From: Brachybacterium huguangmaarense
Lineage (GTDB): Bacteria > Actinomycetota > Actinomycetes > Actinomycetales > Dermabacteraceae
Assembly: GCF_025725725.1 (NCBI RefSeq)
Contig: NZ_CP107020.1
Span: 2,170,001 to 2,234,000 of the forward strand
DNA length: 64,000 nucleotides
Direction of reading: 5' to 3'
Positions 42,979-51,297 of the stretch are shown one piece after another (positions within the stretch are counted from its first letter, which is position 1; the number at the start of each line of letters is the position of its first letter). Below the pieces are notes generated by a model. That model was given only the letters and a program-made list of their open reading frames with translations, did no database searches and was not told the DNA's origin. A program made the translations under genes and the position numbers.

Positions 42979-45657
42979 TCAGCGCGCGGTCAGCCGCTCC
43001 GGCACGAGGATCACGGCGCCGAGCGGGGGCACCGAGAGGCGCACCGAGTGCTCGCGTCCGTGCATCGGCACCTGCTCGGCATCGACCCGTCCCAGGTTGC
43101 CCACGCCGCTGCCGCCGTACACGGGGGCATCGGAGTTGAGCACCTCGGACCAGCCGCCGCCCTCGGGCAGCGGAACCCGGTAGCCCTCCCACGGCACGCT
43201 CGAGAAGTTCACGACCACGACCACGGGGTCGCCGTTGCGGGCGCGCCGCGCGAAGGCGATCGTGTCGTGACCGGCGTCGTCGCCGACCAGCCACTCGAAG
43301 CCCGCCGGATCCTGGTCGAGCTCGGACAGCGCGGGGTAGCGGTGCTGGAGGCCGTTGAGGTCGCGCACGAGCTGCTGGACCCCGCGGTGCAGCGGGTACT
43401 CCAGGAGCCACCACGGCAGCCCGGTCTCCTCGGACCACTCGGTGCCCTGGGCGAACTCGGTGCCCATGAAGATGAGCTGCTTGCCGGGGTGGGCCCACTG
43501 GAACGCCAGGTAGGCGCGCGTCGTCGCCGCCTGCTGCCAGTCGTCGCCGGGGGTCTTGCGCAGCAGCGAGCCCTTGCCGTGCACGACCTCGTCATGGCTG
43601 ATCGGCAGCACGAAGTTCTCGGAGTACTGGTAGACCATCGAGAAGGTGAGCTCGCCGTGGTGGTACTGGCGATGGATCGGCTCCTCCGAGAGGTACTCGA
43701 GGGTGTCGTGCATCCAGCCCATGTTCCACTTGAAGCCGAAGCCCAGCCCGCCCTGGTCGGTGGGCCGCGTGACGCCCGGGAAGGACGTCGACTCCTCGGC
43801 GATCATCGTGATGCCGGGAGCGCGCTTGTAGGCGGTCGCGTTGACCTCCTGCAGGAACTGGATCGACTCGAGGTTCTCGCGGCCCCCGTACTCGTTGGGG
43901 ACCCACTGCCCGTCCTCGCGGGAGTAGTCGAGGTAGAGCATCGAGGCGACGGCGTCGACCCGCAGGCCGTCGACGTGGAACTCCTCGAGCCAGTAGCACG
44001 CGTTGGCGACGAGGAAGTTCTTCACCTCACGGCGGCCCAGGTCGAAGATGTACGTGCCCCAGTCCGGGTGCTCGCCCTTGCGGGGGTCGGCGTGCTCGTA
44101 CAGCGGGGTGCCGTCGAAGCGGGCGAGCGCGAACTCGTCCTTGGGGAAGTGGGCCGGGACCCAGTCCATGATCACGCCGATGCCGGCCCGATGCAGGGTG
44201 TCGATGAGGTGGCGCAGGTCGTCGGGCGAGCCCAGACGCGAGGTCGGCGCGTAGTAGCCGGTCACCTGGTAGCCCCACGAACCGCCGAAGGGGTGCTCGG
44301 CGACCGGCATGAACTCGACGTGCGTGAAGCCCATCTCGCGCACGTAGGCGACGAGCTCGTCGGCCAGCTCGCGGTAGCCCAGGCCCGGGCGCCAGCTCGC
44401 GAGGTGCACCTCGTAGATGGACATGGGCGAGGCGATCGCCTGGGTCTGCGCCCGCTCGGCGAGCCATGCGTCGTCGTCCCACTCGTACGAGGAGGCGGTC
44501 ACGATCGAGCCCGTCGCGGGCGGCACCTCGGTGCGCCGCGCGAGCGGGTCGGCCTTGTCGCGCCACACGCCGTCGGCGCCGAGGATCCGGTACTTGTAGA
44601 CCGCTCCGTCGCCGACGCCCGGCAGGAACAGCTCCCAGATGCCCGAGCCGCCGAGGCTGCGCAGCGAGCACGTGCGCCCGTCCCACGCGTCGAAGTCGCC
44701 GACCACCTGCACGGCCCGGGCGTTGGGCGCCCAGACCGAGAAGCTCGTGCCCGCGACGCCGTCGACCTCGCGCACGTGGGCGCCGAGGGCCTTCCACAGC
44801 TCCTCGTGGCGTCCCTCCTGCAGGAGGTAGAGGTCGAGCTCGCCCAGGGTGGGCAGGAAGCGGTAGGGGTCCTCGACGTCGACGGGCGCGGCGCCGTCGG
44901 TCCACTGCACCCGCAGGGTGTAGCGGGGGAGGTCCTCGCGCGCGACGACGGCGCGCCAGATGCCGTTGTACTCGTGCTCCATCTCGACGGTCGTGCCGTC
45001 GGGCAGCACGACCGCGACGGCCTGGGCGAGCGGCTTGAGGGTGCGCACGGTGACCGCGCCGTCGTACGGATGCGCGCCGAGCACCGAGTGCGGATCGTGG
45101 TAGCTGCCGGTCGCGGCGGCGCCGAGCTCGTGCTCGGAGGCCGGCAGCGGTCGCGGCGCCGCGGCGGGCTCGGCCGCCGGCGCGGCGGCCTTCGTGGTCT
45201 TCGCGGTCGCCCGGGTGCGGCGCGGCGCGGCCGGGGTCTCCGCGGCCTCGGCGGTCTTGGCCGTGGCGGTGCGGGTGCGCTTGGCGGGTGCGGCGGGGGT
45301 CTCCGCGGCCTCGACAGGTTTGGCCTTGGTCGCCCGCGTGCGCTTGGCCGGCGCCGCCGGGGTGCTCGCGGCGGCCTCCGCGGTCTCGGCGGCCTTGGCC
45401 TTGGTGGTGCGGGTGCGCTTGGCCGGTGCGGGGGTCGTCCCGGTGGTCTCGGCGGCCTCCGCGGTCTCGGCAGGCTTGGCCTTGGTGGTCCGCGTGCGCC
45501 TGGCCGGTGCCGCCGTGGGCTCGGCGCCCTCGGCTCCCGTGGCGGCCTTGGCCCTCGTGGCCCGCGTGCGCTTCGGCGCGTTCGGGGTGCCGGCGGCGTC
45601 CGCGGAGGCGGCGGGGTCGGCCGGCGTGGTGCGGCGGGGGGCGTCTCGATCAGGCAT
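42979..45657 (-). CDS. glgB: 1,4-alpha-glucan branching enzyme with N-terminal histone H1-like repeat tail
   Basis: 892-residue GH13 enzyme making alpha-1,6 branches; family members usually have about 630-760 residues. Residues 1-170 are an extra basic tail with six copies of a (K/R)RTR(A/T)TKAK-like core (about 29, 53, 80, 105, 126, 146) separated by Ala/Glu/Pro spacers. From about 175 the normal enzyme begins: N1 and CBM48 domains, then the GH13 barrel with MSIYEVHLASWRPG, GLRVDAVASMLYLDYSRE (nucleophile Asp about 567), MIAEEST and PISHDEVVHGKGS. ATG 45657 lies 7 nt after GAGGAGA and overlaps the glgE stop by 8 nt. Confidence 0.93.
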   Translation of the reverse strand: MPDRDAPRRTTPADPAASADAAGTPNAPKRTRATRAKAATGAEGAEPTAAPARRTRTTKAKPAETAEAAETTGTTPAPAKRTRTTKAKAAETAEAAASTPAAPAKRTRATKAKPVEAAETPAAPAKRTRTATAKTAEAAETPAAPRRTRATAKTTKAAAPAAEPAAAPRPLPASEHELGAAATGSYHDPHSVLGAHPYDGAVTVRTLKPLAQAVAVVLPDGTTVEMEHEYNGIWRAVVAREDLPRYTLRVQWTDGAAPVDVEDPYRFLPTLGELDLYLLQEGRHEELWKALGAHVREVDGVAGTSFSVWAPNARAVQVVGDFDAWDGRTCSLRSLGGSGIWELFLPGVGDGAVYKYRILGADGVWRDKADPLARRTEVPPATGSIVTASSYEWDDDAWLAERAQTQAIASPMSIYEVHLASWRPGLGYRELADELVAYVREMGFTHVEFMPVAEHPFGGSWGYQVTGYYAPTSRLGSPDDLRHLIDTLHRAGIGVIMDWVPAHFPKDEFALARFDGTPLYEHADPRKGEHPDWGTYIFDLGRREVKNFLVANACYWLEEFHVDGLRVDAVASMLYLDYSREDGQWVPNEYGGRENLESIQFLQEVNATAYKRAPGITMIAEESTSFPGVTRPTDQGGLGFGFKWNMGWMHDTLEYLSEEPIHRQYHHGELTFSMVYQYSENFVLPISHDEVVHGKGSLLRKTPGDDWQQAATTRAYLAFQWAHPGKQLIFMGTEFAQGTEWSEETGLPWWLLEYPLHRGVQQLVRDLNGLQHRYPALSELDQDPAGFEWLVGDDAGHDTIAFARRARNGDPVVVVVNFSSVPWEGYRVPLPEGGGWSEVLNSDAPVYGGSGVGNLGRVDAEQVPMHGREHSVRLSVPPLGAVILVPERLTAR
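45162..45657 (-). repeat. Degenerate tandem repeat encoding the GlgB basic tail
   Basis: Six imperfect units of about 60-80 bp coding a (K/R)RTR.TKAK core plus an Ala/Glu/Pro spacer. Unit length varies (core-to-core spacing about 20-27 residues), so it is protein-level repetition rather than an exact DNA satellite. Confidence 0.85.
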
Positions 45658-47731
45658 GGTGAGTCTCCTCGGGGTGGATGATGCGCAGGATGTGGGCGGG
45701 GCGGCTGTCGGGGTCCAGCCCCACGTAGGGGTGCTCGCCCCACGTGAAGCGCTCCCCGGTCAGGAGGTCCTCCACCTCGAACTCGCCCGAGACGCCGAGG
45801 GCACCGAGGTCGAGATGGACGGTGCCCCACGAGCCGCGGTCGTGCGCCGTCAGCGAGGCGACGATCACGGTGTCGGGGGCGCCGGTGCCGGTCGCGTCCG
45901 CGGCCAGGTGCTTGGAGAACACCAGGAGCTGGTCGTCGTCGGCCGTGTGGAACGCGATGTCGGTCAGCTGCTGGAGCGCCGGATGGTCGCGACGGATCGT
46001 GTTCAGGCGCGTCAGCAGCGGCTCGAGGGAGCGGCCCTCGCGCAGGGCGCCGGCCCAGTCACGCGGGCGGAACTCGTACTTCTCGTTGTCGATCTGCTCC
46101 TCGGCGCCCGGGCGCGGCACGTCCTCGACGAGCTCGTAGCCGGAGTAGACGCCCCACGTCGGCACGAGCGTGGCCGCGAGGATCGCGCGCAGCGTGAAGG
46201 CGCGGCGCCCGCCGCCGCTCATGAACGGCGTCAGGATGTCGTGCGTCGTGGGCCAGAAGCTCGGGCGCATGTACGGCGAGGACTCGACGAGCTCCTCGAG
46301 GTACTCGCGCAGCTCCTCGGGGGTGTGGCGCCACGTGTAGTACGTGTACGACTGGTGGAAGCCCACCTTGCCGAGCGTGTGCATCATCGTGGGCCGCGTG
46401 AACGCCTCGGCCAGGAAGATCACCTCGGGATGCTTCTCGGCGAACTCGGCGAGCAGCTCCTCCCAGAAGCGGACCGGCTTGGTGTGCGGGTTGTCGACGC
46501 GGAACAGCGTGACCCCGTGCTCGACCCAGTGCTCGAGCACGTCGCGGATGGCCGCGTACAGACCCTCGTAGTCGGCGTCGAAGCTCAGAGGATAGATGTC
46601 CTGGTACTTCTTGGGCGGGTTCTCCGCGTAGGCGATCGTGCCGTCGGCGCGCACCGAGAACCACTCGGGGTGCTCGGCGACCCACGGGTGGTCGGGGGAG
46701 CACTGCAGGGCGATGTCGAGGGCCACCTCGAGGCCGAGCTCGCGGGCGCGCCCGACGAACGCGTCGAAGTCCTCGAGCGTGCCCAGATCCGGGTGGATCG
46801 CGTCGTGCCCGCCGTCGGCCGAGCCGATCGCGTACGGCGAGCCCGGGTCCCCGGGATGCACCTCGAGGGTGTTGTTGCGGCCCTTGCGGAACGTCGTGCC
46901 GATCGGGTGGATCGGCGTCAGGTAGGCGACGTCGAAGCCCATCGCGGCGATCCGGTCGAGAGCCCCGGCCGCGGTGCGCAGGGTGCCGGAGATCCAGCCG
47001 CCGTGCTGGGCGTCGAAGCGGGCTCCCTCGGAGCGCGGGAAGAACTCGTACCACGAGCCGTACAGGGCGCGCGGGCGCTGGACCACGAGCGCGTGGGGGC
47101 CGCTCACCGTGACGCCGTCGCGAAGGGGGCGCTGATGCAGCACCTCGCGCAGATCGGCGGCGATGGCCGGCGCGAGGCGGGACTCGGGCGACAGCGCGTG
47201 ATTGCGCAGGGAGTCGATCGCCGCCCGGGCGAGGGTCGCATCCGCGGCAGGCCGGGCGCCGGCCTCCGCCTCCTCGACGACGCGCGTGAGCACGTGCACG
47301 CCCTCGGTGAGCATGAGATCGGTGTCGATGCCGGCCGGGACCTTGATCTCGGCGTTGTGCACCCAGGTGTCGTACGGCGCGGAGAAGGCCTCGATCGAGA
47401 AGGTCCAGGGGCCCTCGGCGTCCGGCCGCACCGAGCCGGCCCACAGGTCCAGGCCCGGGTTGGTCGACGTGAGCGGCGAGCGGGAGTGCTCGCTCCCGTC
47501 CGGGGCCGTGAGCACGACCTGCACGCCCATCGCGTCGTGCCCCTCGCGGAAGGCGTTGGCCCCCACGGGCACGGTCTCGCCGACCGTGGCGCGAGCCGGG
47601 AACCGGCCCCCGTCGACCACGGGGGAGACCCCCATGATCGGGACGCGTCCCACCCCGGCGGACCAGGGGGACGGGCGCTGTCCGGCTGCCTGGGAGGCGG
47701 CGGAGCGCGGCGGATCGGTGGGCTGGGACAT
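45650..47731 (-). CDS. glgE: Alpha-1,4-glucan:maltose-1-phosphate maltosyltransferase
   Basis: 693-residue GH13_3 enzyme that extends alpha-glucan using maltose-1-phosphate derived from trehalose. N-terminal domain with RVPIMGVSPVVDGGRFPA and LYGSWYEFFPRSEG. Catalytic barrel with DIALQCSPDHPWV, VTLFRVDNPHTKP (nucleophile Asp about 411), EVIFLAEAFTRP (acid/base Glu about 440) and FWPTTHDILTPFM. ATG 47731. It overlaps glgB, so elongation and branching enzymes are made together. TreS and Pep2, which make maltose-1-phosphate, are not in this window. Confidence 0.96.
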   Translation of the reverse strand: MSQPTDPPRSAASQAAGQRPSPWSAGVGRVPIMGVSPVVDGGRFPARATVGETVPVGANAFREGHDAMGVQVVLTAPDGSEHSRSPLTSTNPGLDLWAGSVRPDAEGPWTFSIEAFSAPYDTWVHNAEIKVPAGIDTDLMLTEGVHVLTRVVEEAEAGARPAADATLARAAIDSLRNHALSPESRLAPAIAADLREVLHQRPLRDGVTVSGPHALVVQRPRALYGSWYEFFPRSEGARFDAQHGGWISGTLRTAAGALDRIAAMGFDVAYLTPIHPIGTTFRKGRNNTLEVHPGDPGSPYAIGSADGGHDAIHPDLGTLEDFDAFVGRARELGLEVALDIALQCSPDHPWVAEHPEWFSVRADGTIAYAENPPKKYQDIYPLSFDADYEGLYAAIRDVLEHWVEHGVTLFRVDNPHTKPVRFWEELLAEFAEKHPEVIFLAEAFTRPTMMHTLGKVGFHQSYTYYTWRHTPEELREYLEELVESSPYMRPSFWPTTHDILTPFMSGGGRRAFTLRAILAATLVPTWGVYSGYELVEDVPRPGAEEQIDNEKYEFRPRDWAGALREGRSLEPLLTRLNTIRRDHPALQQLTDIAFHTADDDQLLVFSKHLAADATGTGAPDTVIVASLTAHDRGSWGTVHLDLGALGVSGEFEVEDLLTGERFTWGEHPYVGLDPDSRPAHILRIIHPEETHHA

Positions 47732-47766: not shown

Positions 47767-50016
<2,250 letters not shown>

Positions 50017-50106
50017 GCGCAGAATCCTGCCACCCGCCGGGGGCCGGTGCGACATCAGGACCCGGCGCGCGGCGGCCCCTCCCGGCGCGGCCTCGGGCCC
50101 GGACGC

Positions 50107-50112
50107 TAGGAT
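50107..50112 (+). promoter_or_regulatory. Candidate -10 box of the MoxR operon
   Basis: TAGGAT in the 204-nt divergent gap between glgX and the MoxR gene; the leader would be about 100 nt. Confidence 0.4.
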
Positions 50113-50220
50113 CGGTGCGTCGCGACGGCGGGTGAGCCGACCCGCACGGCGATGCCGCGCGGCCGGGCCACGGGCCGGCCGCACCGATGATCCACAGCAC
50201 CACGGGGAGCGCACGGACAG

Positions 50221-51297
50221 ATGAGTCAGCCCATCCAGGCACGCCACGACGATCCCCGGCGCGCGAGCGCTCCCGTGCGCTCGGGCCGCAGCTTCACCCC
50301 GGCGACGCCCGCCCTGCGCGTGCAGGACCTCGAGCGGTCCGGTGCGATCGTCACCGCGATCTCCGGGGTCTTCGGCTCACGCGTGGTGGGCCAGGAGAAC
50401 CTGCGGCTGACCCTGCTGGCCTCGCTCGCAGCCGGCGGCCATGTGCTGCTCGAGTCCGTGCCCGGCCTGGCCAAGACGACCGCCGCCTCGGCTCTCGCGT
50501 CGGCGATCGGCGGCTCCTTCCACCGCATCCAGTGCACGCCGGACCTGATGCCCAACGACATCATCGGCACCCAGATCTTCAACTACGGCTCCGGCACGTT
50601 CACGACGCAGCTGGGCCCCGTGCACGCCAACATCGTGCTGCTCGACGAGATCAACCGCTCGAGCGCCAAGACCCAGTCGGCCATGCTCGAGGCGATGCAG
50701 GAGCGCCAGACCTCGATCGGCGGCGAGATCCACCGCCTCCCCGAGCCGTTCATGGTGCTCGCGACCCAGAACCCGATCGAGGAGGAGGGTACCTACGTCC
50801 TCCCCGAGGCGCAGATGGACCGCTTCCTCATCAAGGAGGTGCTGACCTATCCGCGGCCCGGCGAGGAGCACGAGATCCTCGACCGCTCGACGGCCGGGAC
50901 CCTCGCCGCGCCCCAGCAGGCGCCGTCGGCCGCGGTCACCCTGGACGACATCCGCTTCCTCCAGCGCGCCGTCGACCAGGTCTACGTCGACGAGGCCGTC
51001 AAGCGCTACATCGTCGACCTGGTCTTCACGACGCGCGGCTCGGGCCCCCGGCCCGTGCCCAACCTGACCCAGTCGGTGCGGGTCGGCGCGAGCCCCCGCG
51101 GCTCCCTCGCGCTCATGCGGGTGGGCCAGGCCCACGCCCTCATCCACGGCCGCGACTACGTCACGCCCGACGACGTGCGCGCCATGCGCTATGGCGTGCT
51201 GCGCCACCGCCTCGTGCTCACCTTCGACGCGCTCGCCGGCGGCGTGTCGCCCGAGACCATCATCGACGCGGTCTTCCGCGCCGTGCCGATGCCCTGA
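50221..51297 (+). CDS. MoxR-family AAA+ ATPase
   Basis: 358 residues. Walker A ESVPGLAKTT (about 79-87), Walker B IVLLDEINRSS, sensor 1 MVLATQNPIEEEGTY, and the MoxR signature LPEAQMDRFL. MoxR proteins are chaperone-like ATPases that assemble or activate complexes, commonly together with von Willebrand A proteins. The five following genes form a canonical MoxR-DUF58-vWA cluster. The start ATG is 4 nt after a CGGACAG stretch; a stronger Shine-Dalgarno is not evident. Confidence 0.93.
   Translation: MSQPIQARHDDPRRASAPVRSGRSFTPATPALRVQDLERSGAIVTAISGVFGSRVVGQENLRLTLLASLAAGGHVLLESVPGLAKTTAASALASAIGGSFHRIQCTPDLMPNDIIGTQIFNYGSGTFTTQLGPVHANIVLLDEINRSSAKTQSAMLEAMQERQTSIGGEIHRLPEPFMVLATQNPIEEEGTYVLPEAQMDRFLIKEVLTYPRPGEEHEILDRSTAGTLAAPQQAPSAAVTLDDIRFLQRAVDQVYVDEAVKRYIVDLVFTTRGSGPRPVPNLTQSVRVGASPRGSLALMRVGQAHALIHGRDYVTPDDVRAMRYGVLRHRLVLTFDALAGGVSPETIIDAVFRAVPMP

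Follow-up and report, generated by a model that had tools for sequence, protein, structure and literature searches.

In the 64,000-nucleotide stretch of the Brachybacterium huguangmaarense genome studied here (contig NZ_CP107020.1 of assembly GCF_025725725.1, positions 2,170,001 to 2,234,000; hereafter the window), the glycogen branching enzyme GlgB carries a repeat-built, histone H1-like basic N-terminal tail of 174 residues that lies in frame with the catalytic core and is very probably translated. Lys-rich, low-complexity N-terminal tails recur on GlgB of other Actinobacteria, and sometimes on the maltosyltransferase GlgE, probably with several origins. Such basic tails are real and recurrent and apparently undescribed as such, although long N-termini of branching enzymes are already a described class.

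The tail contains 14 Lys and 19 Arg together with 4 Asp and 12 Glu (net charge +17, isoelectric point (pI) 11.23), and residues 175-892 carry a net charge of -43 (pI 4.97). No known Pfam domain overlaps residues 1-174. A first-pass annotation of this DNA had described six copies of a (K/R)RTR.TKAK core. Six (K/R)RTR blocks are indeed present (Table 1), but only those at residues 53, 80 and 105 match the proposed core letter for letter, whereas the blocks at residues 29 (KRTRATRAK), 126 (KRTRTATAK) and 146 (RRTRATAKT) depart from it. When the residues of the tail were shuffled 5000 times, the mean number of (K/R)RTR blocks was 0.065 and the maximum 2, compared to the six observed. In 2000 shuffles of the tail bases a mean of 2.5 Lys (maximum 8) was obtained versus 14 observed, while the 19 Arg lie below the 33.3 expected from the same shuffles. 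The Lys excess is therefore not due to the high G+C content, and pure G+C drift as its source was ruled out.

On the DNA level, the repeats form an imperfect tandem array, which was detected in four overlapping rows (45219-45390, 45294-45534, 45303-45562 and 45294-45573). This array suggests that the tail most likely grew by in-frame internal duplication. Between the repeat copies (15 pairs of 9-codon cores), the proportion of synonymous differences (pS) was 0.37 and exceeded that of nonsynonymous differences (pN; 0.22). Codon use in the tail resembles that of the core and is slightly looser, with a G+C content at third codon positions (GC3) of 0.937 versus 0.972 and with AGG and CGA confined to the tail. 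Tails of the H1 type are Lys-, Ala- and Pro-rich, basic and disordered. The GlgB tail has this composition together with predicted disorder, but is also rich in Thr and Arg; it is thus similar to rather than typical of such tails, and we do not class it as an H1 member. A whole-genome search for further copies of the tail, in which scores were obtained for 150 of 261 candidates, gave only weak matches (best E 0.02), in frames unlike basic tails.

We then compared the locus in 38 Brachybacterium genomes including this one, one of which is Brachybacterium alimentarium. GlgB was found in all 38. Ahead of the GlgB core, the 37 congeners have an extension of 15-74 residues with 0-1 Lys, compared to 174 residues with 14 Lys here, and the tail test described below was positive in this genome alone (1/38). 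These short neutral extensions indicate that the tail arose at the species level, by expansion of a linker that is short and neutral elsewhere in the genus. The first-pass annotation had proposed to look for KRTR.TKAK extensions in related genera and to compare their copy number. None was seen in the 37 other genomes of the genus, so that copy number is not comparable inside the genus, and other genera mostly have other motifs. In G027 the enzyme was matched as two overlapping pieces (G027:C1:2121217-2123384, 5′ part in L228), possibly because of a frameshift. In addition, the GlgB frame of L022 contains a TGA, for which assembly error and decay are both possible. The long frames that lie upstream in L221 and L222 look as if the adjacent gene had been read out of frame.

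To the in-frame region ahead of the GlgB core of other Actinobacteria we applied a tail test, which demands, within 50 residues, no fewer than 5 Lys and 9 Lys plus Arg, a net charge of at least +4, few hydrophobic residues and low complexity. Its thresholds were set after GlgB tails had been seen, which favours GlgB, and were subsequently varied. Two sets of loci were used, neither of which gives an unbiased prevalence: a named set of 80 loci, the best 80 of at least 592 relatives, and a class set of 100 loci, hand-picked among the matches listed (262 of 296 genomes matched, best first) with preference given to long contigs and a spread of genera, and with many loci of family f23 added. The latter family is probably Streptomycetaceae, which the codes alone cannot prove. 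The class set spans 97 genomes, as G133, G189 and G274 each contributed two loci. The B. alimentarium locus occurs twice, as L037 in the named set and as L224 in the genus set; no further duplicates between sets were seen.

A basic tail was found on GlgB in 11 of the 80 named and 13 of the 100 class loci (24/180 together), including loci of Streptomyces, Modestobacter, Blastococcus, a Microbacteriaceae genome and the families f5, f21, f23, f35 and f37. Counted by Lys alone, 15 of the 180 GlgB have at least 10 and 20 have at least 8 per 50 residues. Because frames were read to the upstream stop, out-of-frame Arg inflates some weak GlgB positives (for example L082, L086 and L088) and likewise some other open reading frames (ORFs). 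The view that a composition of this kind is not known from glycogen enzymes did not hold up, since these 24 other actinobacterial GlgB and a few GlgE have comparable tails. Their motifs mostly differ from that of B. huguangmaarense (KKAAAKK, KTPTAK and similar), the nearest being that of Modestobacter L070, in which AKRTRKAAA occurs twice. A quick tree built from 218 GlgB rows requires at least 14 changes of the tail trait, with 8 changes forced by well-supported branches. As the motifs differ, gain in separate lineages is likely, whereas the change count itself cannot separate gains from losses. Genomes of family f23 with two GlgB gave a mixed picture. In G274 the tail is present on L189 and not on L204; in G143 L178 is tailed, and the open frame of the other copy (743 residues) leaves little room for a tail; in G133 and G189 neither fetched copy passed the test. 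For Streptomyces coelicolor, two clusters are described as serving vegetative and aerial cells, respectively (PMC2374992).

The specificity of the test was checked against 673 other ORFs of the same 180 loci, an incomplete list with possibly some wrong frames. With at least 5 Lys, 24/180 GlgB were positive versus 4/673 other ORFs, and all four of these are GlgE according to Pfam. Raising the limit to 6 Lys gave 24/180 versus 3/673, and at the strictest setting 15/180 GlgB were found versus 2/673 other ORFs, both again GlgE. Since the ORF caller missed GlgB in 28 of the 100 class and 6 of the 80 named loci, the GlgB counts were taken from the BLAST frame. A low-complexity stretch of any charge is present in 58/180 GlgB. 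It is basic in 25 of these 58 and acidic in 19, whereas among 58 other ORFs with such a stretch it is basic in only 5 (four GlgE and one subtilase). A narrower test on GlgE detected a basic tail in 3/105, indicating that GlgE is tailed far less often than GlgB. Within a 464 kb sample of the B. huguangmaarense genome (the window plus 400 kb), 49 of 321 ORFs have a low-complexity stretch. Of these ORFs, 31 have an acidic stretch and 2 a basic one; the two are GlgB and a class A penicillin-binding protein in which both kinds occur. In these sets GlgB thus carries basic tails unusually often, and tolerance of linkers alone does not account for the sign of the charge.

In the four GlgE proteins, the basic low-complexity stretch precedes the N-terminal GlgE domain (L189:92-2443; L195:4420-6900 and L196:4350-6794, both on the minus strand; L050:2-3232). 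Three are from family f23 and one from a Bifidobacteriaceae metagenome-assembled genome (MAG). At two of these loci, L195 and L196, GlgB itself fails the tail test. In the penicillin-binding protein (L234:14099-16810) the basic stretch is located before the transglycosylase domain.

A disordered polycation on an acidic enzyme has a tendency to bind polyanions or acidic proteins, and the partner GlgE is acidic too (net charge -39 across 681 aa). We give roughly even chances to the tail being a disordered polycationic tether. According to this scenario, a unit of about 20-27 residues within the short neutral linker of the genus would have been duplicated in frame in this species, and the tail would have grown in this way. 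It would act as a loose electrostatic tether between the strongly acidic enzyme and either a polyanion or acidic partners (GlgE, other GlgB cores), and the tether might concentrate the glucan-building enzymes at one place. The first-pass annotation had put forward nucleic acid, polyphosphate and a wall teichoic polymer as possible anchors, or else a role in organising the glucan granule. The recurrence on GlgB, occasionally on GlgE and hardly on neighbouring genes favours such an assembly role over a general property of the proteome. A stronger version, in which polycationic tails evolved repeatedly on GlgB and GlgE of Actinobacteria and serve, against the strongly acidic cores of both enzymes, as electrostatic glue that gathers the machinery in a condensate or on a polyanion and sets the place or density of the granule, appears unlikely to us.

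In an AlphaFold2 model built with a 21-row alignment (mean pLDDT, the predicted local distance difference test score, 72.1 for GlgB), the ten-residue blocks of the N1 domain scored 84-95. Residues 1-165 had a pLDDT below 50 and no secondary structure, with blocks over 1-160 at 24-31; the other rows of the alignment are cores only and leave the tail without alignment depth, so that low values there are expected as well as indicative. The model is compatible with disorder, which is very probable for the tail, and lends no support to a folded N-terminal domain. The missing alignment depth is one of several points that weigh against a tether. The 37 other Brachybacterium genomes do without a basic tail, among them the two whose GlgB is most similar to this one (85% and 84% identity), with extensions of 63 and 22 residues. 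Tails also turn over fast. Tailed GlgB were compared in their ten closest pairs, all from Streptomyces or f23. The 150 pre-core residues, some of which lie outside the protein and blur these figures, are 35-90% identical with many gaps and have a pN/pS of 0.63-0.96, whereas the cores are 90-97% identical with a pN/pS of 0.13-0.33. Furthermore, no matching of charge between tail and core was observed, as tail-bearing cores (mean net charge -36.2, n=12) did not differ from others (-38.8, n=97). At the loosest hydrophobicity limit of the tail test, the contrast was weaker (26/180 GlgB versus 9/673 other ORFs). Overall, the contrast between GlgB and other ORFs is strong, but it is not a calibrated probability, given post-hoc thresholds, non-random sets and related rows; Fisher tests, which take no account of relatedness, carry no weight here.

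Several of these points are shared by a serious rival, namely that the tail is a nearly neutral linker. In that case low-complexity N-termini would be tolerated, their length would shift by replication slippage in GC-rich DNA, and the basic ones would be without selected function. The restriction to one of 38 genomes, the fast turnover, the recognisable DNA repeats of which the array is built and the variety of low-complexity stretches on GlgB, acidic ones included, are all in line with this explanation. It is less easily reconciled with Lys far above and Arg below the expectation from base composition, with the rarity of basic stretches among neighbours, with pS exceeding pN between repeat copies and with the recurrence on both GlgB and GlgE. 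We regard it as a real possibility that nonetheless falls short of probable.

As a special case of the tether, the tail might bind nucleic acid, so that GlgB, and hence glycogen granules, would be kept on the nucleoid or on RNA by a tail like that of topoisomerase I (TopA). The composition of the tail would suit such a role, the TopA of the same genome (L249) ends in a short basic tail (KRSTAKRAPAKKATSTRKKS), and binding of this kind has been proposed and partly shown for TopA repeats (PMC7398561). On the other hand, none of the Pfam domains of GlgB is a nucleic-acid-binding one, and the enzymes that bear the tails, GlgB and GlgE, have glucan as their substrate. No link between GlgB and nucleic acid was found in the open-licence literature as far as its accessible text goes. 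We rate this special case as improbable.

An artefact of annotation or assembly, with the start lying downstream or the repeat being a sequencing error, is very improbable, and nothing was found in its favour. The tail frame runs uninterrupted into the catalytic core, and position, frame, Shine-Dalgarno sequence and the 8-nt overlap with glgE (45650-45657, with the glgB ATG at 45657) were confirmed by inspection of the sequence as the first-pass annotation had given them. Its central proposal, a repeat-built H1-like basic tail that is very probably translated, is likewise supported. No in-frame ATG, GTG or TTG occurs between codons 1 and 192 of glgB, and codon 192 is already within GlgB_N. Initiation near residue 170 would therefore have no usable start codon, and a downstream translation start was rejected. 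A Shine-Dalgarno-like motif ahead of an in-frame ATG was detected by script in 38/38 genomes of the genus, although in L028 the script settled on an ATG that precedes the likely start by 12 codons. The glgB ATG lies between 11 nt before and 34 nt after the end of glgE in the 23 of 38 genus genomes with a placeable glgE stop, and in 14 of these 23 the overlap is 8 nt as well. The assembly consists of 2 contigs with an estimated completeness of 99.99%. Translation of the tail is what one would naturally expect.

Long N-termini of branching enzymes have been grouped before. In the available parts of PMC6339891 (Wang et al. 2019), Type 3 glycogen branching enzymes (GBE) are defined by at least 100 residues ahead of N1 and more than 200 ahead of CBM48; 147 were found, most of them in Actinobacteria, and the extension was suggested to be a CBM48-like N0 domain, which is not a criterion of the class. 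The GlgB described here has the length of a Type 3 enzyme, with 175 residues ahead of GlgB_N and 290 ahead of CBM48. A folded, carbohydrate-binding N0 domain altering the length of the transferred chains was nevertheless rejected and is very improbable for this protein, whose extension has no Pfam match before residue 176, is of low complexity and repetitive, and is predicted to be disordered.

The features of the locus are collected in Table 1. In GlgB, Pfam matches comprise GlgB_N (residues 176-265), CBM48 (291-373), the alpha-amylase domain (best stretch 436-506) and an all-beta C-terminal domain (789-886). Six NCBIfam branching-enzyme models match the protein. Three are above their own cut-offs (NF003811, 992.8 versus 741; TIGR01515, 944 versus 463.95; NF008967, 884.3 versus 577), and three narrower ones (NF011293, NF009221 and NF011294) are below. 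By these domains and models the 892-aa protein is a glycogen branching enzyme of family GH13 with N1 and N2 domains. Upstream of glgE, at 47767-50247 of the window (minus strand), a protein with CBM48 and alpha-amylase domains is encoded that is GlgX-like by domains and place, which gives the gene order glgX-like, glgE, glgB.

Table 1. Features of the glgB tail and its surroundings (positions in the window)
Feature	Position	Strand	Remarks
GlgB N-terminal tail, residues 1-174	45136..45657	minus	net +17; A 34%, T 18%, P 13%, R 11%, K 8%
Repeat block 1, KRTRATRAK start	45544..45573	minus	10 residues from residue 29
Repeat block 2, RRTRTTKAK start	45472..45501	minus	10 residues from residue 53
Repeat block 3, KRTRTTKAK start	45391..45420	minus	10 residues from residue 80
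Repeat block 4, KRTRATKAK start	45316..45345	minus	10 residues from residue 105
Repeat block 5, KRTRTATAK start	45253..45282	minus	10 residues from residue 126
Repeat block 6, RRTRATAKT start	45193..45222	minus	10 residues from residue 146
Imperfect DNA tandem array	45219..45573	minus	periods 63, 81 and 156 nt; 74-80% matches
glgB, 892 aa	42979..45657	minus	Pfam and NCBIfam matches, ORF list; basic tail, GlgB_N (N1), CBM48 (N2), alpha-amylase catalytic domain, all-beta C-terminal domain
Shine-Dalgarno sequence of glgB, GAGGAG	45665..45670	minus	within the 3′ end of glgE
glgE (maltosyltransferase)	45650..47695	minus	GlgE_dom_N_S and GLGE_C matches; ends 8 nt into glgB; 5′ end provisional

Other tailed GlgB (for example L063, L094, L097, L110, L178, L189, L192 and L211; L070 and L091; L047, L148 and L180) have a Lys-rich, low-complexity tail at the same place, but mostly with other motifs and with several separate changes on the tree. 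Maltokinase-GlgB fusions of Arthrobacter (L048:1890-5648 and L053:1848-5654) also have an extra N-terminal part and a linker before GlgB_N at the place of the tail. In contrast to the GlgB studied here, this extra part is a maltokinase (Mak_N_cap). A relict linker of such a fusion was considered as an origin of the tail and dropped, since fusions exist elsewhere but none was seen in the genus.

The closest known parallel in composition is the C-terminal domain of actinobacterial topoisomerase I. In the text of PMC7398561 available, its Lys repeats are likened to histone H1, and stabilisation of the complex between the enzyme and DNA is attributed to them. As in GlgB, degenerate Lys-rich H1-like repeats tail an enzyme of GC-rich Actinobacteria. 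In topoisomerase I, however, they are C-terminal, belong to a DNA enzyme and are tied to processivity, whereas the GlgB tail is N-terminal, belongs to a glucan enzyme and is rich in Arg and Thr as well. The Type 3 enzymes share with it the long extension before N1, but are defined by length with a suggested N0 domain, while the tail here is a polycation predicted to be disordered. In the accessible parts of PMC6339891 neither basic nor repetitive extensions are mentioned, and 'disordered' does not appear as a word. Beyond these long N-termini, no report of a Lys-rich, basic or disordered N-terminus of a branching enzyme was found in the open-licence literature, judged partly by titles and abstracts, nor one of H1-like tails on actinobacterial branching enzymes in its accessible text. 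The portions available of a review on alpha-glucan enzymes (PMC11046441) contain neither 'N0 domain' nor 'N-terminal extension' nor 'disordered'.

The role of the long N-termini of branching enzymes was left open in PMC6339891, and the only proposal in the part of it available, that of a folded N0 domain, does not match this GlgB. If the tails are neutral, they would offer a natural set for studying the gain and loss of disordered tails. If they are tethers, a storage-polymer pathway would be spatially organised by a type of disordered tail that is used by nucleoid proteins.

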